Assembly (NCBI GenBank): GCA_024398495.1
Contig: JAKSJA010000017.1
Coordinates: 1 to 36,957, forward strand
Direction: 5' to 3'
DNA from: Bacteroidaceae bacterium
Lineage (GTDB): Bacteria; Bacteroidota; Bacteroidia; Bacteroidales; Bacteroidaceae
DNA: 36,957 nt
Position numbers and translations under genes: made by a program. Positions 4,501 to 29,870 of the stretch are shown here, in pieces. Positions within the stretch are counted from its first letter, which is position 1; each line of letters opens with the position of its first letter. The notes under the pieces are model-generated. The model ran no database searches and was not told the origin of the DNA. It was given only the letters and a program-made list of their open reading frames with translations.

Positions 4501-6869
4501 CCACTTCGGAAGATGGTGGATTTACCGATAATTGTGTGGTAACAGTAAAAGCTCTTAATGCTATCAGTGTGAAGACAGAGCCAAGAAAGGCTTATCTTGC
4601 TGGGGAAAAGTTTGATCCAACGGGACTTGTGATTACTGCAACTTATAGCGATACAAGTACAGAAGAGGTAACTTATTCTGACGAGACAAAAGATGATTTC
4701 ACATTTGAGCCAAATCTGGAAACTCCATTGAAGGCATCAAATGATAAGGTCACTATTGGATATGGTAACAAGGCTTGTGATTTGTCAATTACTGTTAGAG
4801 AACCGAATGTGTATCATCTGGTAACAGATGCAAGTCAGTTGTCTGTCGGTGATGTATGTATCATTGTTACAAAAGACAATACTCGTGCAATGAGCACAGA
4901 CCAAAAGCAAAACAATCGTGGATCTGTGGAGATTGTAAAAAATGATAACAAGATAACCGAAGTTAATGGACTTCAAGAATTGACATTGAAAACAGGAAAA
5001 AAAGAAAACACTTTTGCTTTCTATACAGGCAGTGGTTATCTGTACGCAGCAAGCAGCGGAAACAACTACTTGAATACAGAAGAAACACTTTCAGACAACA
5101 GCTCTTGGAGTATCAGCATATTAGATGGTACTGCGAATATAATTGCACAGGGAGAAAATTCTCATAAAGTGATGCAGTTCTATGATAATAGTGGAAGTCT
5201 TATTTTCTCTTGTTATGAAAATGCAAGTCACGATGCTTTGAGTATTTACAAGAAAGCAAAAGACTATACTGTAACCATCGAAACACCGGAAAACGGAACT
5301 CTTGTAGTAAAGAATGGTGAAACCGAAGTGACGAGTGGAAATTCGCTCCCAACAGGAACTACATTGACAATTGAACCAACTCCAGCTGACGGATATAAAT
5401 TTAAGAACTGGCAGTATAAAAAAGATATAGATGATAGTAAATGGACATCTAATACAACAACTTTCACTTATACAATCGGTCTTGAGAATGTTTCTTTTAG
5501 AGCTAATTTTGAGCCGAAACCATCATTTACAGTAACATACAATGTCTTCGGGAAGGGAATCTTTACAGAAAGTGTCTTGGAAGAAGAATCCATCAAGAAC
5601 GCTCCGACTCCAACCGCATTGAAGGATTGGACATTTGAAGGATGGACGGCAGATGAAACGTACACAACAGGCAATACAAAACCTGAGATCTTTGATGTTT
5701 CGACTCCGATAAAGGATAATTTACCACTATATGCTGTCTTCAAGAAGTCTGAAGGTGAAGATGCTTATCAAAAAGTTACCAAAGCTCAAGAGGATTGGCG
5801 AGGCAATTATTTAATAGCATATAGTAACGATGTCTTTATGGATGGTTCCCTCGCAGGAGGAACATCGGGTGTTGGGGCAGCTAATTCATCCGTTGCACCA
5901 GGAGGCGCTCTGTCAGAAGACAAATCAACTGTTACAGTTGCATGGGGTGATGAACACTATGTAACTATTGAGGCTATAAATGATGAAGATTTGTCTGGAG
6001 GTTATGTTATAAAGAGCCATTCAACAACCACTCCGTATTTCTATCAAACAAAAAATGAGAATGGTATGGTTGCTACCGACAAAAAAGAGACTGCGGCTGT
6101 GTATCCTATTACAATTACCTTTAACAATGCGAGTGATATAGCTATCGCATTAGGAGGTGGTGCAGCAGGTGCTATTCTCCATTATAATGCAACTAATACA
6201 GGAAACATGTTTCGTTTCTATAAGAATGGTGGTCAAAGTTCTATCTATCTGTACAAATTTACATCTAATACAACTTATACTACAGAAATGCCAGAGGGAG
6301 CGACTGTTTCTGTTACTGTAAATCCTATTGGTAATGGTTCATTCTGTTCGACTGTAGATTTGGACTTCACCGACAGGAAGGATGTTGAGGCGTATATTGC
6401 AACAAGTGATGAGGGCGACAAACTGATTCTTAACAAGAGAAACAAGATACCTGCTGGTACAGGATTCTTCTTAATAGGCACTGGTGGTACTTATGATGTC
6501 CCTGTTACATCTGATGAATGTGATGACTGTACAAATAATCTATTGTCTGGAACGATAGTACCATATACTGTTAAAGAAGCTGATGTAGATTTTGTTTGGG
6601 CATTGTCAAAGAGTGATGGCAAGTTACATCCTGTTAAAGCTGGTGTGAAAATAGGTGCTGGCAAGGCTTATCTGAATAAAAACATAAAAGCTTCTGCCTT
6701 GAGCCTGATGATTGCTTCAGAGCCGACAGGAGTTGAGGAGATAAAATCTCAGTCAACAGTCAACGGTCAACAGTCAACGGCTGTTTACAACCTGCAGGGT
6801 ATGAGAGTAACTACACCTAAGAAGGGTGAAGTTTATATCATGAATGGTAAAAAAATCCTTATGAAATAA
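1563..6869 (+). CDS. Large secreted multi-domain surface protein (Ig-like / InlB-like repeats)
   Basis: This 1768-residue protein begins with a signal peptide (about 1-29, ending LAWG). Visible modules in order: a beta-rich module with paired YLYWNSGN and ACYASG motifs (about 30-168); an Ig-like domain with the QWYSN...YYCVATN pattern (about 177-270); a beta-sandwich-like region (about 271-417); a bacterial Ig-like repeat with VGETFNPAALVITATYDD (about 418-505); a BIG2-like domain (about 593-680); an InlB/Listeria-Bacteroides-type repeat (about 690-775); a BIG2 domain with ATVDANGLVT (about 914-995); a second copy of the VITATYSD repeat (about 997-1080); a second copy of the first module (about 1083-1230); two more InlB-like repeats (about 1234-1395); a third, diverged copy of the module (about 1400-1565). 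The C-terminus has YNLQGMRV and YIMNGKKILMK, a tail common on exported Bacteroidales proteins and possibly a secretion signal. No catalytic site is recognised, so an adhesin or scaffold role is inferred. Confidence 0.8.
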   Translation: MKKTYLYSLFARYLTLLILALLSTNLAWGEDTWEKLTSVPKAGDVVILVNETAKREMTEISTTSTKYGLATTYKTSPAGSYPLTVCAGNSDGSLAFKTRDNKYLYWNSGNSLDVNATLDNKTSWTVTVSNGNFTITNVATNARVIKYNKNSGQERFACYASGQEAVQMYKKQSSTPVEPVAPSITTQPKGASYEKDATATALTIAASGNPTPTYQWYSNTTESTSGASLISGATNASYTPSTATIGTKYYYCVATNTQGSATSDIVAVTITAALPKITITADKIADFGSSYKEYTWTANDVSGKCWAYRGGSEGSYNIQFNKTTYVYNTTAVPGRITSVKMTKVSGTTRSWSIYGADEALTGDNYTTAGTQIGSAQEVSNETGTTWNVPNDKNYTYFYITKADGGTNIGEIVITYEEPKTLTSIAVKTAPSKTTYNVGETFNPAALVITATYDDESTKDIAYSDETKDDFTFSPDLTTALTAANNQVTITYGGKTCSQTITVNKIATSLAWSASSYEATISEQNEYPTLTTTPENLSGVTYSSSNPDIANIDANTGDIELIAAGETTIKASFVGDDTYQAATDATYTLTVKKSTDTRAFVNITSVSAEQTTIIKGGTTTLTVTNDQQDWTPSYTYTSDNKDVATVTDGVITAVGKGKATIKVSVNIADEDPNYRVGDTPSKTIEITVNNPSHTAQFSVDGAIDEKDNVTAEEGTTITFPADPSTTVEKYVFKGWVKYPITEPLQTAPDFVNTETETMGTADITYYAVFAEKGGGEPAEEKTQTLKYDTWSCSGSTTDKSTYRLFHSGSYIESAEFDLSKLLKVIVYGGTFGGDSYNSLTIGDGTNTWKSVTVSGKSETGTNTYTDGTPLSGTGKLRITSNSGTATGSGVRISKVEIFTMEGGYTYSNYRTNVTIHVTGISVNPATTTVLAGQTKKLEVTITPADAMNKNVKWTSDDESVATVDANGLVTTLKAGTATIKATSEDGGFTDNCVVTVKALNAISVKTEPRKAYLAGEKFDPTGLVITATYSDTSTEEVTYSDETKDDFTFEPNLETPLKASNDKVTIGYGNKACDLSITVREPNVYHLVTDASQLSVGDVCIIVTKDNTRAMSTDQKQNNRGSVEIVKNDNKITEVNGLQELTLKTGKKENTFAFYTGSGYLYAASSGNNYLNTEETLSDNSSWSISILDGTANIIAQGENSHKVMQFYDNSGSLIFSCYENASHDALSIYKKAKDYTVTIETPENGTLVVKNGETEVTSGNSLPTGTTLTIEPTPADGYKFKNWQYKKDIDDSKWTSNTTTFTYTIGLENVSFRANFEPKPSFTVTYNVFGKGIFTESVLEEESIKNAPTPTALKDWTFEGWTADETYTTGNTKPEIFDVSTPIKDNLPLYAVFKKSEGEDAYQKVTKAQEDWRGNYLIAYSNDVFMDGSLAGGTSGVGAANSSVAPGGALSEDKSTVTVAWGDEHYVTIEAINDEDLSGGYVIKSHSTTTPYFYQTKNENGMVATDKKETAAVYPITITFNNASDIAIALGGGAAGAILHYNATNTGNMFRFYKNGGQSSIYLYKFTSNTTYTTEMPEGATVSVTVNPIGNGSFCSTVDLDFTDRKDVEAYIATSDEGDKLILNKRNKIPAGTGFFLIGTGGTYDVPVTSDECDDCTNNLLSGTIVPYTVKEADVDFVWALSKSDGKLHPVKAGVKIGAGKAYLNKNIKASALSLMIASEPTGVEEIKSQSTVNGQQSTAVYNLQGMRVTTPKKGEVYIMNGKKILMK
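6753..6780 (+). repeat. 7-bp tandem repeat, 4 units, in coding sequence
   Basis: Four head-to-tail units read TCAACAG, TCAACGG, TCAACAG, TCAACGG. They sit inside the large surface-protein gene and encode the STVNGQQST stretch, just before the C-terminal YNLQG tail. The same unit recurs at 8123-8150 and 29129-29142. Confidence 0.85.
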
Positions 6870-7428: not shown

Positions 7429-8163
7429 ATGAAGGAGATTGTTGACTTTTTGAATGAGCTGAGGGTGAACAACAACCGTGTGTGGTTTAATGAGCATAAG
7501 CAGCAGTATCTTGTGGCGAAGGCTGAGTTTGAGAAGATTACACAACAGCTCATTGACGGTTGTGAGAAGTTCGACTCCCGCATAAAAGGTCTGACGATAA
7601 AAGACTGCACGTACCGTATCTACCGTGATGTGCGTTTCAGTACTGACAAGAGTCCTTACAAGGTCCACATGGGAGCATATATTTGTCCTGAGGGTAAAAA
7701 GTCGGGGTATGCTGGATATTATTTCCATATCGGCACTGGTGTCAATGCAGAGGGCGTCGGTGATGGTTATCCGTACAGTCACATGCTTGCTGTGGGTGAC
7801 TACCGTTTTCAGCCAGAGGTGCTGAGGGTGTTGCGTGAGGATATCGTGGCTGATGATGGTGAACTGGACAGGATATTGAAGACAAAGGTGTCTCCGTTGT
7901 TCTGTATAGACTTGGAGAGTGCTCTGAAGAAGGTGCCGGCAGGGTTTCCTGCTGACTCGCCGTGGGCGGAATATCTGAAGTTGCGCACGTTCTGCTTGTG
8001 CTGGTGTCCTGACGACAAGTTCATGAGGAGCAAGGATGTGATAGAACGGTCACTGGAGTTGTTCCGTTCTGCTCAGCCTTTCCTCGAATACATCAACAGG
8101 GCTATTGAGTATGTAAGAGAAGTCAACGGTCAACAGCCAACGGACAACGGCAAAAAGCCGTAG
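7429..8163 (+). CDS. DUF2461 family protein (TIGR02453-type)
   Basis: This 244-residue protein fits DUF2461: an N-terminal FLNELRVNNNRVWFNEHKQQY (family NNxxWFxxN/H-K-xx-Y pattern), RIYRDVRFS(T)DKSPYKVHMGAYI at about residues 64-87, and a GYYFHIG stretch at about 98-104. The family is cytoplasmic and uncharacterised. The ATG at 7429 is chosen over a GTG at 7426 because of promoter distance and codon quality. The last 14 codons come from a 7-bp tandem repeat (VNGQQPTDNGKKP), so the C-terminus appears to have been extended by repeat DNA, ending in a small ACGGC/GCCGT hairpin at the stop codon. Confidence 0.85.
   Translation: MKEIVDFLNELRVNNNRVWFNEHKQQYLVAKAEFEKITQQLIDGCEKFDSRIKGLTIKDCTYRIYRDVRFSTDKSPYKVHMGAYICPEGKKSGYAGYYFHIGTGVNAEGVGDGYPYSHMLAVGDYRFQPEVLRVLREDIVADDGELDRILKTKVSPLFCIDLESALKKVPAGFPADSPWAEYLKLRTFCLCWCPDDKFMRSKDVIERSLELFRSAQPFLEYINRAIEYVREVNGQQPTDNGKKP
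8123..8150 (+). repeat. 7-bp tandem repeat, 4 units, at C-terminus of DUF2461 gene
   Basis: Units TCAACGG, TCAACAG, CCAACGG, ACAACGG. They are translated in the same frame as the copy at 6753-6780 (VNGQQ in both proteins), although the two proteins are unrelated. Confidence 0.85.
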
Positions 8164-9012: not shown

Positions 9013-9059
9013 CTCTAGAAAAGCTAGAAATTCTAGCAGCTCTAGAAAATCTAGAAAAT
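9013..9059. repeat. 9-bp CTAG-centred tandem repeat
   Basis: CTAG cores occur at 9015, 9024, 9033, 9042 and 9051, exactly 9 bp apart, with the consensus CTAGAAAAT. The array fills the spacer between the exported protein and the C_GCAxxG gene. A related array in the opposite orientation lies at 14068-14130. Confidence 0.85.
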
Positions 9060-14044: not shown

Positions 14045-14067
14045 CGGAATTAGTGGGATAGAGGGTT

Positions 14068-14130
14068 TTCTAAGTTTTCTGGGATTTCTTGGGGTTCTGG
14101 AGTTTCTAGGTTTTCTAGGGGTTCTGGAGA
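14068..14130. repeat. 9-bp TTCT-phased tandem repeat
   Basis: TTCT cores at 14068, 14077, 14086, 14095, 14104, 14113 and 14122 are all exactly 9 bp apart, with consensus TTTTCTAGG. This is the reverse complement type of the array at 9013-9059. It fills the spacer after the C26-M19 gene. A short unrelated frame through it (FLGFLGVLEFLGF) is only the repeat being read as protein. Confidence 0.85.
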
Positions 14131-27467: not shown

Positions 27468-27469
27468 TA

Positions 27470-27533
27470 AACCGTACAACCGTATAACCCCAAAACCGTA
27501 AAACCGTAAAACCGCAAAACCGTAAAACCGCAA
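27470..27533 (+). repeat. 8-bp tandem repeat AACCGYAN, 8 units, intergenic
   Basis: Eight contiguous 8-bp units (AACCGTAC, AACCGTAT, AACCCCAA, AACCGTAA, AACCGTAA, AACCGCAA, AACCGTAA, AACCGCAA) fill almost the whole gap between the alcohol dehydrogenase stop and the pdxA-like start. There are no spacers, so it is not a CRISPR array. Confidence 0.93.
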
Positions 27534-27543
27534 AAAGAAAAAT

Positions 27544-28584
27544 ATGTTGAAACCAAAGTTGGCTATTACCATGGGCGATCCCGCAGGGATAGGTCCTGAA
27601 ATCATAGTAAAGGCACTGAGTGAAAAGGCTGTTTATGACAAGTGTCTTCCGTTGGTGACTGGCGATGCAAAAGTAATGCAACAGGCAGCAAAACAGCTGG
27701 ATTCATCGCTTAATATACACCCTATAAAGAATGTCGCAGACGCAAAGTTTGAATATGGCACTATCGATGTCTATGACTTGGATTGTGTGGATATGACGAC
27801 ATTCCGACTGGGAGAGGTACAGGAACAATGCGGTCATGCTGCTTTTTTGTTTGTCACAAAGGCAATAGAACTGGCAATGGCAAACGAGGTGGATGGTACT
27901 GTTACTGCTCCGCTGAACAAGGAGGCGTTGAATCTTGCAGGTCATCATTTCGATGGACATACAGAGATTTATGCCAATTTCACCAATACGAAGAAATATG
28001 CCATGCTCTTGGCTGATGAATTTCTGAGAGTTATTCATGTATCTACTCATGTCCCATTGAGAGTAGCATGCGATAGAGTGAAAAAGGAACGCATCATAGA
28101 GGTGACGGAACTTATCAATGATGCCTGTCTGCAGTTTGGTATCGAAGTACCGCGAATAGGTATCGCAGGTCTTAACCCTCATGCCAGCGATGGAGGGTTG
28201 TTTGGAGATGAGGAGGAAAAAGAGATTATTCCTGCAGTGGAAGAACTGAAGTCACGTGGTTTCAACGTGACAGGTCCTGTGCCACCTGATTCTTTGTTTG
28301 CCAAAGCTCGTTGTGGACAGTTTGATGGTTGTGTAGCAATGTATCACGACCAGGGACATATCCCATTCAAGGTATGTGGTTTCCAATGGGATAAGACAAC
28401 AGGGAAGATGGAGAGTGCAGAGGGAGTAAACATCACTCTTGGACTTCCTATCATCCGCGTCAGCGTTGACCATGGTACGGCCTTTGACGTTGCAGGAAAA
28501 GGTGTTGCATCACCTTCTGCCATGCTGCTTTCAATAGATTATGCAACAAAGATGGCATGTTCACGACTGAAGGCAAAGGCATGA
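27544..28584 (+). CDS. pdxA: PdxA-family 4-phospho-hydroxyacid dehydrogenase
   Basis: This 346-residue protein has TMGDPAGIGPEI at 9-20, GHxxGHTE (GHHFDGHTEIYA), STHVPLRVA, LNPHASDGGLFGDEE, and MYHDQGHIPFKV with TLGLPIIRVSVDHGTAFDVAGKG, all characteristic of PdxA. PdxA oxidises 4-phosphohydroxy-threonine in pyridoxal-phosphate synthesis. Paralogues (PdxA2) oxidise 4-phospho-D-threonate or -erythronate and yield dihydroxyacetone phosphate plus CO2, and those pair with a four-carbon acid-sugar kinase, as here. The neighbouring kinase favours the PdxA2 role. ATG 28581 of the kinase overlaps its stop by 4 nt. Confidence 0.88.
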   Translation: MLKPKLAITMGDPAGIGPEIIVKALSEKAVYDKCLPLVTGDAKVMQQAAKQLDSSLNIHPIKNVADAKFEYGTIDVYDLDCVDMTTFRLGEVQEQCGHAAFLFVTKAIELAMANEVDGTVTAPLNKEALNLAGHHFDGHTEIYANFTNTKKYAMLLADEFLRVIHVSTHVPLRVACDRVKKERIIEVTELINDACLQFGIEVPRIGIAGLNPHASDGGLFGDEEEKEIIPAVEELKSRGFNVTGPVPPDSLFAKARCGQFDGCVAMYHDQGHIPFKVCGFQWDKTTGKMESAEGVNITLGLPIIRVSVDHGTAFDVAGKGVASPSAMLLSIDYATKMACSRLKAKA

Positions 28585-29870
28585 CAGTTATCGCTGACGA
28601 CCTTACGGGAGCGGCTGAAATAGCAGGCATGGCACCTGCGGGTACCGTTGTCATCGCTACCAATACGCGGTCATTGTCGGAGACAGAAGCTCAAGAAGAG
28701 ACGGTACGTGTAATCAGACATTATGCTCTCACAAAGGAACATATCATATTCAAAAAGACGGATTCTGCCATACGTGGTCATATTGTAGCAGAACTGCAAA
28801 CGATAATGCGGGAGTTGGGATACGAAAGATGTCTTCTGCTTCCGCAAAACCCATCAAAAGGAAGGGTGATAAAAGACGGAATGTACTATGTTAACGATGT
28901 CCCTTTGCATAATACATCATTCAGTTATGATCCGGAATTTCCTGCTGTTTCATCGGAAGTACAAGAAGTGCTGAAAGGTGCGTCTTATCTTTCTTTGAAT
29001 GACAGGATGAAAATGGGAATAAACATTGCTGAGGCAAAATCAAAGGAAGATATTGAACTACAGGTGGGTAAGGTTGAGAGAGATACACTTGTCGCTGGTG
29101 CTGCCGACCTCTTTGCTGCGATTAGAAGTCAACGGTCAACGGACTACCCTATAACCGTACAACCGCAAAACCGCATAACCGTAAAACCGCAAAACCGTAC
29201 AACCGCAAAACCGCAAAACCGCATAACCGTACAACCGCAAAACCGTACAACCGCAAAACCGCATAACCGTACAACCGTACAACCGCATAACCGCATAACC
29301 GTACAACCGCAAAACCGCATAACCGTACAACCGCAAAACCCTATAACCGCAAAAGGCCAACTGTCATTTGACGGATTTTCTTCAATAACCATTGTTCAGG
29401 GAAGCACGTTGAGTCAGGATTTGTCAACATTATCTTTCTTCAGTCAATACAACATACAGACGTGTCCGATGCCTGATGATGTCTTCGACGGTGCCGATAG
29501 GACGGATTGGTTGAAGAAAGGCAATATCTGTATGACCATTCCGCAGAAACGAAGCAATCCTGTATGGTGCAAGACTATCATGGCAAAAACTGTATGTGAA
29601 AGATTTGGCATCATTCCATCAGAAAAATCCTTGACATCAATAGAAATCATTCATACAACAGAGACAGATGTTTCTGACGCTGATTCTCTGTTGGTAATAG
29701 AAGGAGGGGCTACTGCATTTGCCATATTAACAGCGATGAATTGGGACAAATTACAGTTAATAGAACAGATTGCAGCGGGTGTCGTAGCATTAAAGCATGA
29801 CAATGTCATTGTTGTCCTGAAACCGGGAAGTTATCCTTGGGGAGGAATGTTTTCAAACTTCAAACTCTAA
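28581..29870 (+). CDS. Four-carbon acid-sugar kinase (DUF1537/OtnK-type) with repeat insertion
   Basis: This 429-residue protein has an N-terminal domain starting [15 protein letters not shown] and including [10 protein letters not shown] and [12 protein letters not shown], which matches the four-carbon acid-sugar kinase family. The C-terminal domain has [13 protein letters not shown] and [11 protein letters not shown], the nucleotide-binding half. These kinases phosphorylate threonate- or erythronate-type acids and hand the product to PdxA2. Residues about 183-258 are a low-complexity tract (period 8, [15 protein letters not shown] type) encoded by tandem repeat DNA at the domain boundary. 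Removing it leaves about 355 residues. Whether the enzyme still works is unknown, but both halves and the frame are intact. ATG 28581 is chosen over 28557 because of the ATGA overlap and the family N-terminus. Confidence 0.85.
29129..29142 (+). repeat. 7-bp tandem repeat, 2 units, in kinase gene
   Basis: TCAACGG TCAACGG lies directly before the 8-bp array and inside the kinase frame (SQRSTD). It is the same unit as at 6753 and 8123. Confidence 0.8.
29145..29352 (+). repeat. 8-bp tandem repeat AACCGYAN, 26 units, inside the kinase gene
   Basis: There are 208 nt of contiguous 8-bp units, 25 good matches to AACCGYAN-type units plus a first degenerate TACCCTAT. Three units (24 nt) make eight codons, so the array is translated as an 8-residue repeat ([24 protein letters not shown] and similar). 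The same unit forms the intergenic array at 27470-27533. Confidence 0.95.

Follow-up and report, generated by a model that had tools for sequence, protein, structure and literature searches.

Tandem Repeats in Bacterial Leaders and Coding Regions

Several kinds of short tandem repeats have been described in prokaryotes. The heptamer TAACTGA forms dispersed tandem arrays, mostly in forward orientation and a few nucleotides before start codons (MacGregor, 2015; PMC4679880). According to the parts of that report used here, these repeats are found in some Bacteroidetes, are absent from close relatives, are mixed with other repeats, and precede genes that share no function (PMC4679880). Forward copies of TAACTGA are described as stopping all three reading frames, so that forward copies in coding regions are impossible, and the coding copies are either reversed or overlap the ends of ORFs (PMC4679880). 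A role in translation was proposed in the same report, where it is treated as unproven (PMC4679880). In H. influenzae, 7-bp repeats lie at the promoter of the surface adhesin gene hmw1A, whose expression is described as graded by the repeat number (PMC8262952). Long simple sequence repeats with units of 5–11 nt were reported from scattered prokaryotic lineages, and multiples of three are favoured in coding regions (Mrazek, 2007, as summarized in PMC4679880).

Here we analyze an octamer repeat, AACCGYAH, which is translated within a kinase gene of a Bacteroidaceae bacterium. The window is a stretch of 36,957 nucleotides (contig JAKSJA010000017.1 of assembly GCA_024398495.1), and the sister genome used for comparison was Candidatus Equicola stercoris E3_MB2_38 (hereafter G256; for the name Candidatus Equicola, see PMC8957277). 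No report of the AACCGYAN octamer was found in the open-licence literature by searching for repeat strings in full text and by topic. Judging from the comparison of features, the TAACTGA leader repeats are the closest of the described systems; the octamer differs from them in its unit and in sense coding. Like TAACTGA, the AACCGYAH arrays stand in forward orientation just before starts, are dispersed, are absent from relatives, and occur with other repeats mixed in and with diverse genes downstream. Unlike TAACTGA, the unit is of 8 bp, and forward coding copies exist, enriched in units that are safe from stops. As at contingency loci such as hmw1A, tandem units of 7–8 bp could alter expression or frame by their number; however, the units of the kinase array vary in sequence, its host gene is a metabolic one, and the unit numbers compared are those of the window's genome and its sister species. 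The genome-wide occurrence of 7–8-bp tandem arrays also resembles the repeats surveyed by Mrazek, although a coding unit of 8 bp is the disfavoured case, which is kept open here by the choice of units. We regard the octamer as probably a lineage-specific 5′-leader repeat and not as a switch; copies that have landed in frame would be tolerated as disordered linkers.

The Kinase Gene and Its Array

The array lies in a gene of the DUF1537 type (Table 1), which is preceded by genes for a DHDPS-family aldolase, a sodium symporter, an iron alcohol dehydrogenase, and PdxA. The product scores 101.8 bits against SBD_N (gathering cut-off 25) and 25.8 bits against NBD_C (cut-off 28.3), the latter over residues 376–425 only, and the profile alignment with relatives extends over both domains. 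The same two-domain architecture is seen in solved structures of DUF1537 or four-carbon acid sugar kinases (4xfm, 4xfr, 1yzy, 3dqq, and 5dmh). The kinase falls below the cut-offs of both equivalogs compared, D-threonate kinase (NF047819, 83.8 against 450) and 3-oxo-tetronate kinase (NF043035, 49.7 against 350). Values of dN/dS against the sister, 0.22 for the N-terminal and 0.12 for the C-terminal domain, show purifying selection on both. As a separate observation, the kinases of the window and the sister are without about 20 residues between a preceding motif and the ATNTRS motif (region 28557–28650), which several relatives have. Collinearity with the sister ends right behind the kinase, from 29871 onward, where the window has a leucyl-tRNA synthetase-like ORF and G256 a membrane-protein-like ORF (identities by eye).

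Table 1. Features of the kinase locus and of the preceding leader, in window coordinates.
Feature	Position	Strand	Remarks
Intergenic array, octamer family, 8 units	27470..27533	+	Ends 10 nt before the pdxA start
PdxA-like 4-phosphate dehydrogenase, 3′ of the intergenic array	27544..28584	+	ORF list and domain matches
Sugar-acid kinase ORF (SBD_N + NBD_C, DUF1537-type), 437 aa	28557..29870	+	Alternative in-frame ATG at 28581
N-terminal sugar-binding domain, to residue 188	28584..29120	+	SBD_N match at residues 10–143, E = 6.4e-29
Two GTCAACG heptamers, 5′ edge of the insertion	29128..29142	+	Heptamer family dispersed in the genome
Octamer array, 25 units, consensus AACCGYAH	29153..29352	+	Kinase residues 199–266
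C-terminal nucleotide-binding domain, from residue 269	29361..29867	+	NBD_C match at residues 376–425
Site of the sister's GTCAACA-type in-frame insert in the C-terminal domain	29640..29678	+	Absent in the window

The initial annotation had described 26 contiguous octamers preceded by two 7-bp units. The array itself is real and the two heptamers are present, but the unit scan gives 25 contiguous octamers, of which 24 are exact AACCGYAN and the remaining one is AACCCTAT; what had been counted as the 26th unit is a degenerate TACCCTAT directly 5′ of them. The period-8 peptide repeat in the open kinase frame, between the N- and C-terminal domains, was correctly recognized, and so was the intergenic copy 1.6 kb upstream. 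TRF called the array twice, at 29151–29349 with period 24 (8.3 copies, score 293) and at 29153–29354 with period 16. Because the array of about 200 bp comes from an assembly that is 62.7% complete in 37 contigs, its exact unit number is uncertain.

The 1.43-Mb genome contains 89 exact matches to about 2.6 AACCGYAN units and 0 to the reversed pattern, and this excludes a chance origin of the repeats. Within the array the kinase frame has no stop, and the other two sense frames have 7 and 2. The probability of an open kinase frame is 0.018 when the array's own units are shuffled and 0.0007 when units are drawn from noncoding arrays. Internal restart behind the array was considered and rejected, since the next in-frame ATG lies 116 nt downstream, unlike the situation at leader arrays. 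Stepwise growth by blocks of three units was likewise set aside. Its signs are weak: identity at frame-keeping offsets is 0.77–0.81, slightly above most other offsets, and units three apart are identical in 9 of 21 pairs (p = 0.06), but a perfect internal match of 37 bp, among the longest in the array, sits at an offset of seven units, which loses the frame.

The Linker in the Sister Species and in Orthologues

The kinase tract is an in-frame AACCGYAH array in the interdomain loop and is absent from the sister. G256 is the closest genome compared, and the N-terminal part of its kinase is 88% identical to that of the window; its interdomain linker has 12 residues, compared with 80 in the window. 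Both motifs that flank the insertion point, AGAADLF and GS, are conserved. A kinase match was present in 91 of 398 genomes of the genus, and linkers were compared in 34 orthologues. With a separate pair of anchors, these 34 DUF1537 kinases have linkers of 14–45 residues, none near the 94 that a further choice of anchors gives for the window, and for this reason the long linker is taken as the derived state. The initial proposal that the tract is an insertion at the linker is thus borne out by the sister and by the orthologues compared, none of which carries an equally long linker in its place.

Other repeats are found in the same loop. Unrelated TRF repeats of period 7 or 9 overlap the kinase linker in 8 of the 34 orthologues. 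Two of these linkers contain the 9-mer ACTATAGRN, which is scattered over the respective genomes (15 and 6 pattern matches) and gave 0 matches in a third genome tested; of 8 distinct arrays of this type, 3 lie within sense ORFs and 1 within an antisense ORF.

A Dispersed Family before Start Codons

The noncoding members of the octamer family stand on the sense strand. In most of them only a few nucleotides separate the array end from a start codon, and unit numbers differ between the sisters. The family was surveyed as arrays with at least three exact units at the loci of the window's genome and of G256, the latter represented by the first 100 of 108 matches. Among the matches listed there are 62 arrays in the two genomes: 6 in sense ORFs, 3 flagged in antisense ORFs, and 53 elsewhere. 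The three flags come from the ORF heuristic, and behind two of these arrays a sense ORF begins after only 5 and 7 nt. An ORF on the same strand starts within 60 nt of the array end in 38 of the 53 arrays outside ORFs, and within 30 nt in 31 of them (among the matches listed). A start on the opposite strand within 60 nt was seen for only one of the 53, an array with a sense start 10 nt away as well; the difference of 38 to 1 gives a two-sided binomial probability of 1.5e-10 (among the matches listed). The degeneracy of the unit is fixed. In 203 inner units, positions 1–4 and 7 are constant in at least 99%, G stands at position 5 in 189, position 6 always has T or C, and G occurs once at position 8.

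The genes behind the arrays include those for GroES, S1, RecR, a primary-sigma-like protein with sigma-70 region 2, and GldM, as judged by Pfam on 10 hand-chosen genes rather than a random sample; the genes for S1, FtsX, and a tRNA-deacylase start 75–140 nt from their arrays. Between the window's genome and the sister, orthologous leader arrays keep their position and have 7 and 6, 3 and 4, 9 and 7, 16 and 6, 10 and 5, or 5 and 5 units, the last pair with other variants. Some orthologous leaders carry other repeats instead of octamers. The sister lacks exactly these 66 bp of the pdxA leader, 27469–27534.

Outside these two genomes, the preference for sense holds less well. Of 12 arrays in other genomes, 2 are coding in sense and 4 are followed by a sense start no more than 60 nt away, and at one site (in genome G094) two long AACCG arrays stand antisense to a nearby ORF start, against the rule. 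A wide distribution of the arrays was rejected, since arrays of 3.6 units were found in 6 of 299 genomes of the genus and in 1 of 395 genomes of the phylum, which is the window's own. An origin from phages or plasmids was also rejected, as the kinase array had no match in the phage collection and none in the plasmid collection. The sense leaders are less folded than shuffled sequences (z = 1.0, 1.5, and 4.1). The antisense strand of the kinase array also folds less than its shuffles (z = 2.29), and in absolute terms it is the more stable one (-32 versus -11 kcal/mol).

Coding Arrays and the Avoidance of Stops

The degenerate unit of the octamer permits sense coding. It had initially been supposed that any array is readable, which turned out to be wrong: of the 512 possible unit triplets, 416 have at least one sense frame with a stop, while none has a stop in an antisense frame. 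Nevertheless, all 8 coding arrays with at least two exact units are read in sense (among the matches listed). Seven of the eight were used for the stop and Pfam tests, L147:2585 with its 2 exact units being dropped. The frame is open in all seven; their chances of being open, as calculated from noncoding units, multiply to 5e-8.

Units that are free of stops in every register are overrepresented in coding arrays. Of 52 coding units only 1 has TAA and 19 have TAC, compared with 81 and 18 of 285 noncoding units. Units safe in every register number 40 of 52 in coding arrays, where 22.9 would be expected from the open frame alone. Even in the stop-proof register, 11 of 17 coding units are safe versus 93 of 285 noncoding units (Fisher 0.015), although unit-level P values of this kind are too small because the units of one array are not independent of each other. 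Compared array by array, the share of safe units still differs between 8 coding and 58 noncoding arrays (Mann-Whitney p = 1.2e-4, among the matches listed); safe units make up at least half in 19 of the 58 noncoding arrays. The surplus hints at past residence of the units in other registers, or at coding arrays which seed coding arrays. Preference for certain amino acids would be another explanation.

Of the seven coding arrays, six fall outside the Pfam matches, as between GH2_C and malectin or between Metallophos and 5_nucleotid_C, and one (L067) lies inside a match to MacB_PCD. At four coding sites the lengths in the window's genome and the sister differ by multiples of three, as they must because the frames of both species are open. 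At one glycosidase linker (L062:2828-2875 and L147:1650-1780), in-frame AACCG octamers in the window's genome face in-frame CAGACCYCT 9-mers in the sister, a case of one repeat family having taken the place of another.

Possible Roles of the Repeat

Under the reading that we prefer, the family would supply the translation start with a region free of structure, to which an RNA-binding protein might bind, and its arrays may grow and shrink by slippage or ectopic copying. A copy that lands in frame in a domain linker could then be tolerated as a hydrophilic, disordered spacer, and the kinase tract would be such a passenger linker, its frame kept by selection. Bacteria of this kind have been reported to lack Shine-Dalgarno signals. 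If the leader arrays set translation levels, they would form a simple and evolvable rheostat of expression. The same octamer occurs before starts and inside proteins, in sense only and with differing unit composition, which makes the ecology of a repeat family testable. Its presence or absence at many sites between two sisters makes gain, loss, and replacement of repeats traceable at the base level, and the kinase linker is a natural replicate, as other Prevotella-like species hold other repeats in the same loop.

A neutral or selfish repeat without leader function, which spreads everywhere and survives where it does no harm, is an unlikely alternative but the strongest one. Lack of structure would make arrays harmless before starts, and the hydrophilic nature of the sense peptide would do so in linkers; antisense copies would be purged because the antisense peptide is Cys-rich and hydrophobic. 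Purging by peptide would indeed fit the finding that the antisense strand never stops and yet the coding arrays are in sense. Two more observations speak for this explanation: a site may be occupied by one repeat family in one sister and by another in the other, and unrelated repeats lie in the kinase linkers of orthologues. By itself, however, it leaves unexplained both the preference for sense over antisense near ORF starts (38 to 1 among the matches listed) and the fixed degeneracy of the unit, with its near-constant positions 1–4 and 7, C or T at position 6, and almost no G at position 8.

A stronger version of the leader hypothesis, which we think rather doubtful, is dual use: a single family would serve as mRNA leader and as translated linker on the same strand, its coding arrays would be built from a sub-alphabet of units with a stop in none of the three registers, and it would spread in a strand-aware manner (RNA- or transcription-linked). 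In this version, a coding array would stay readable whatever unit is gained or lost, and its signature would be that coding copies are in sense only, although antisense copies could be read far more easily.

The initial annotation suggested that the tract could act as a phase-variation switch, with the kinase broken by a change of one or two units and kept by a change of three. After a gain or loss of one or two octamers, translation would leave the kinase frame and end in the array or soon after it. The arithmetic is right. A unit of 8 bp is not a multiple of 3, only changes in threes restore the frame, and the stops in the other sense frames would end a shifted product. Orthologous leader arrays do differ in unit number between the sisters, and the 37-bp perfect match lies at a frame-losing offset. 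However, the tract is far from the near-perfect repeat of a contingency locus: neighbouring units are identical in 3 of 23 pairs, and identity is 75% at an offset of one unit and 81% at three. The composition of the array is biased towards the open frame, both kinase domains are under purifying selection, the host gene is metabolic, octamer arrays also precede groES, recR, and the primary-sigma-like gene, and the sister lives without the tract at its kinase. Thus, a switch is very unlikely. An assembly artefact, by which collapsed or mis-joined repeats of the metagenome produced the array or its unit number, is less credible still: the genome is incomplete and some 200 bp are near-repeats, but an open frame runs across the 25 units and on into a conserved domain, the flanks are collinear with the sister, and the nearby genes agree with the sister and other relatives.

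Other Repeats in the Genome

Of 28 distinct arrays examined from the heptamer family GTCAACR, 10 lie in sense ORFs and 0 in antisense ORFs; near starts, 6 are sense and 5 antisense, which weakens the orientation rule for this family too. Examples lie at 6752–6778 and 8122–8148 of the window and at loci L197, L202, L205, L209, and L221. Several share a position before a C-terminal segment (..KSQSTVNGQQSTAVYNLQGMRV), which resembles a type IX secretion sorting domain. Some leaders (L061, L064, L066, L074, L076, L139, L155, and L162) consist of several short repeat phrases in series, namely TTGATAA, GTTTAAR, GGGTAAAG, ACGATA, CTCAGACCY, and AACCG, with AACCG nearest to the start. Further tandem repeats of the window are TCTAGAAAA at 9014–9059 and a TTTCTGGGG-like repeat at 14063–14129.
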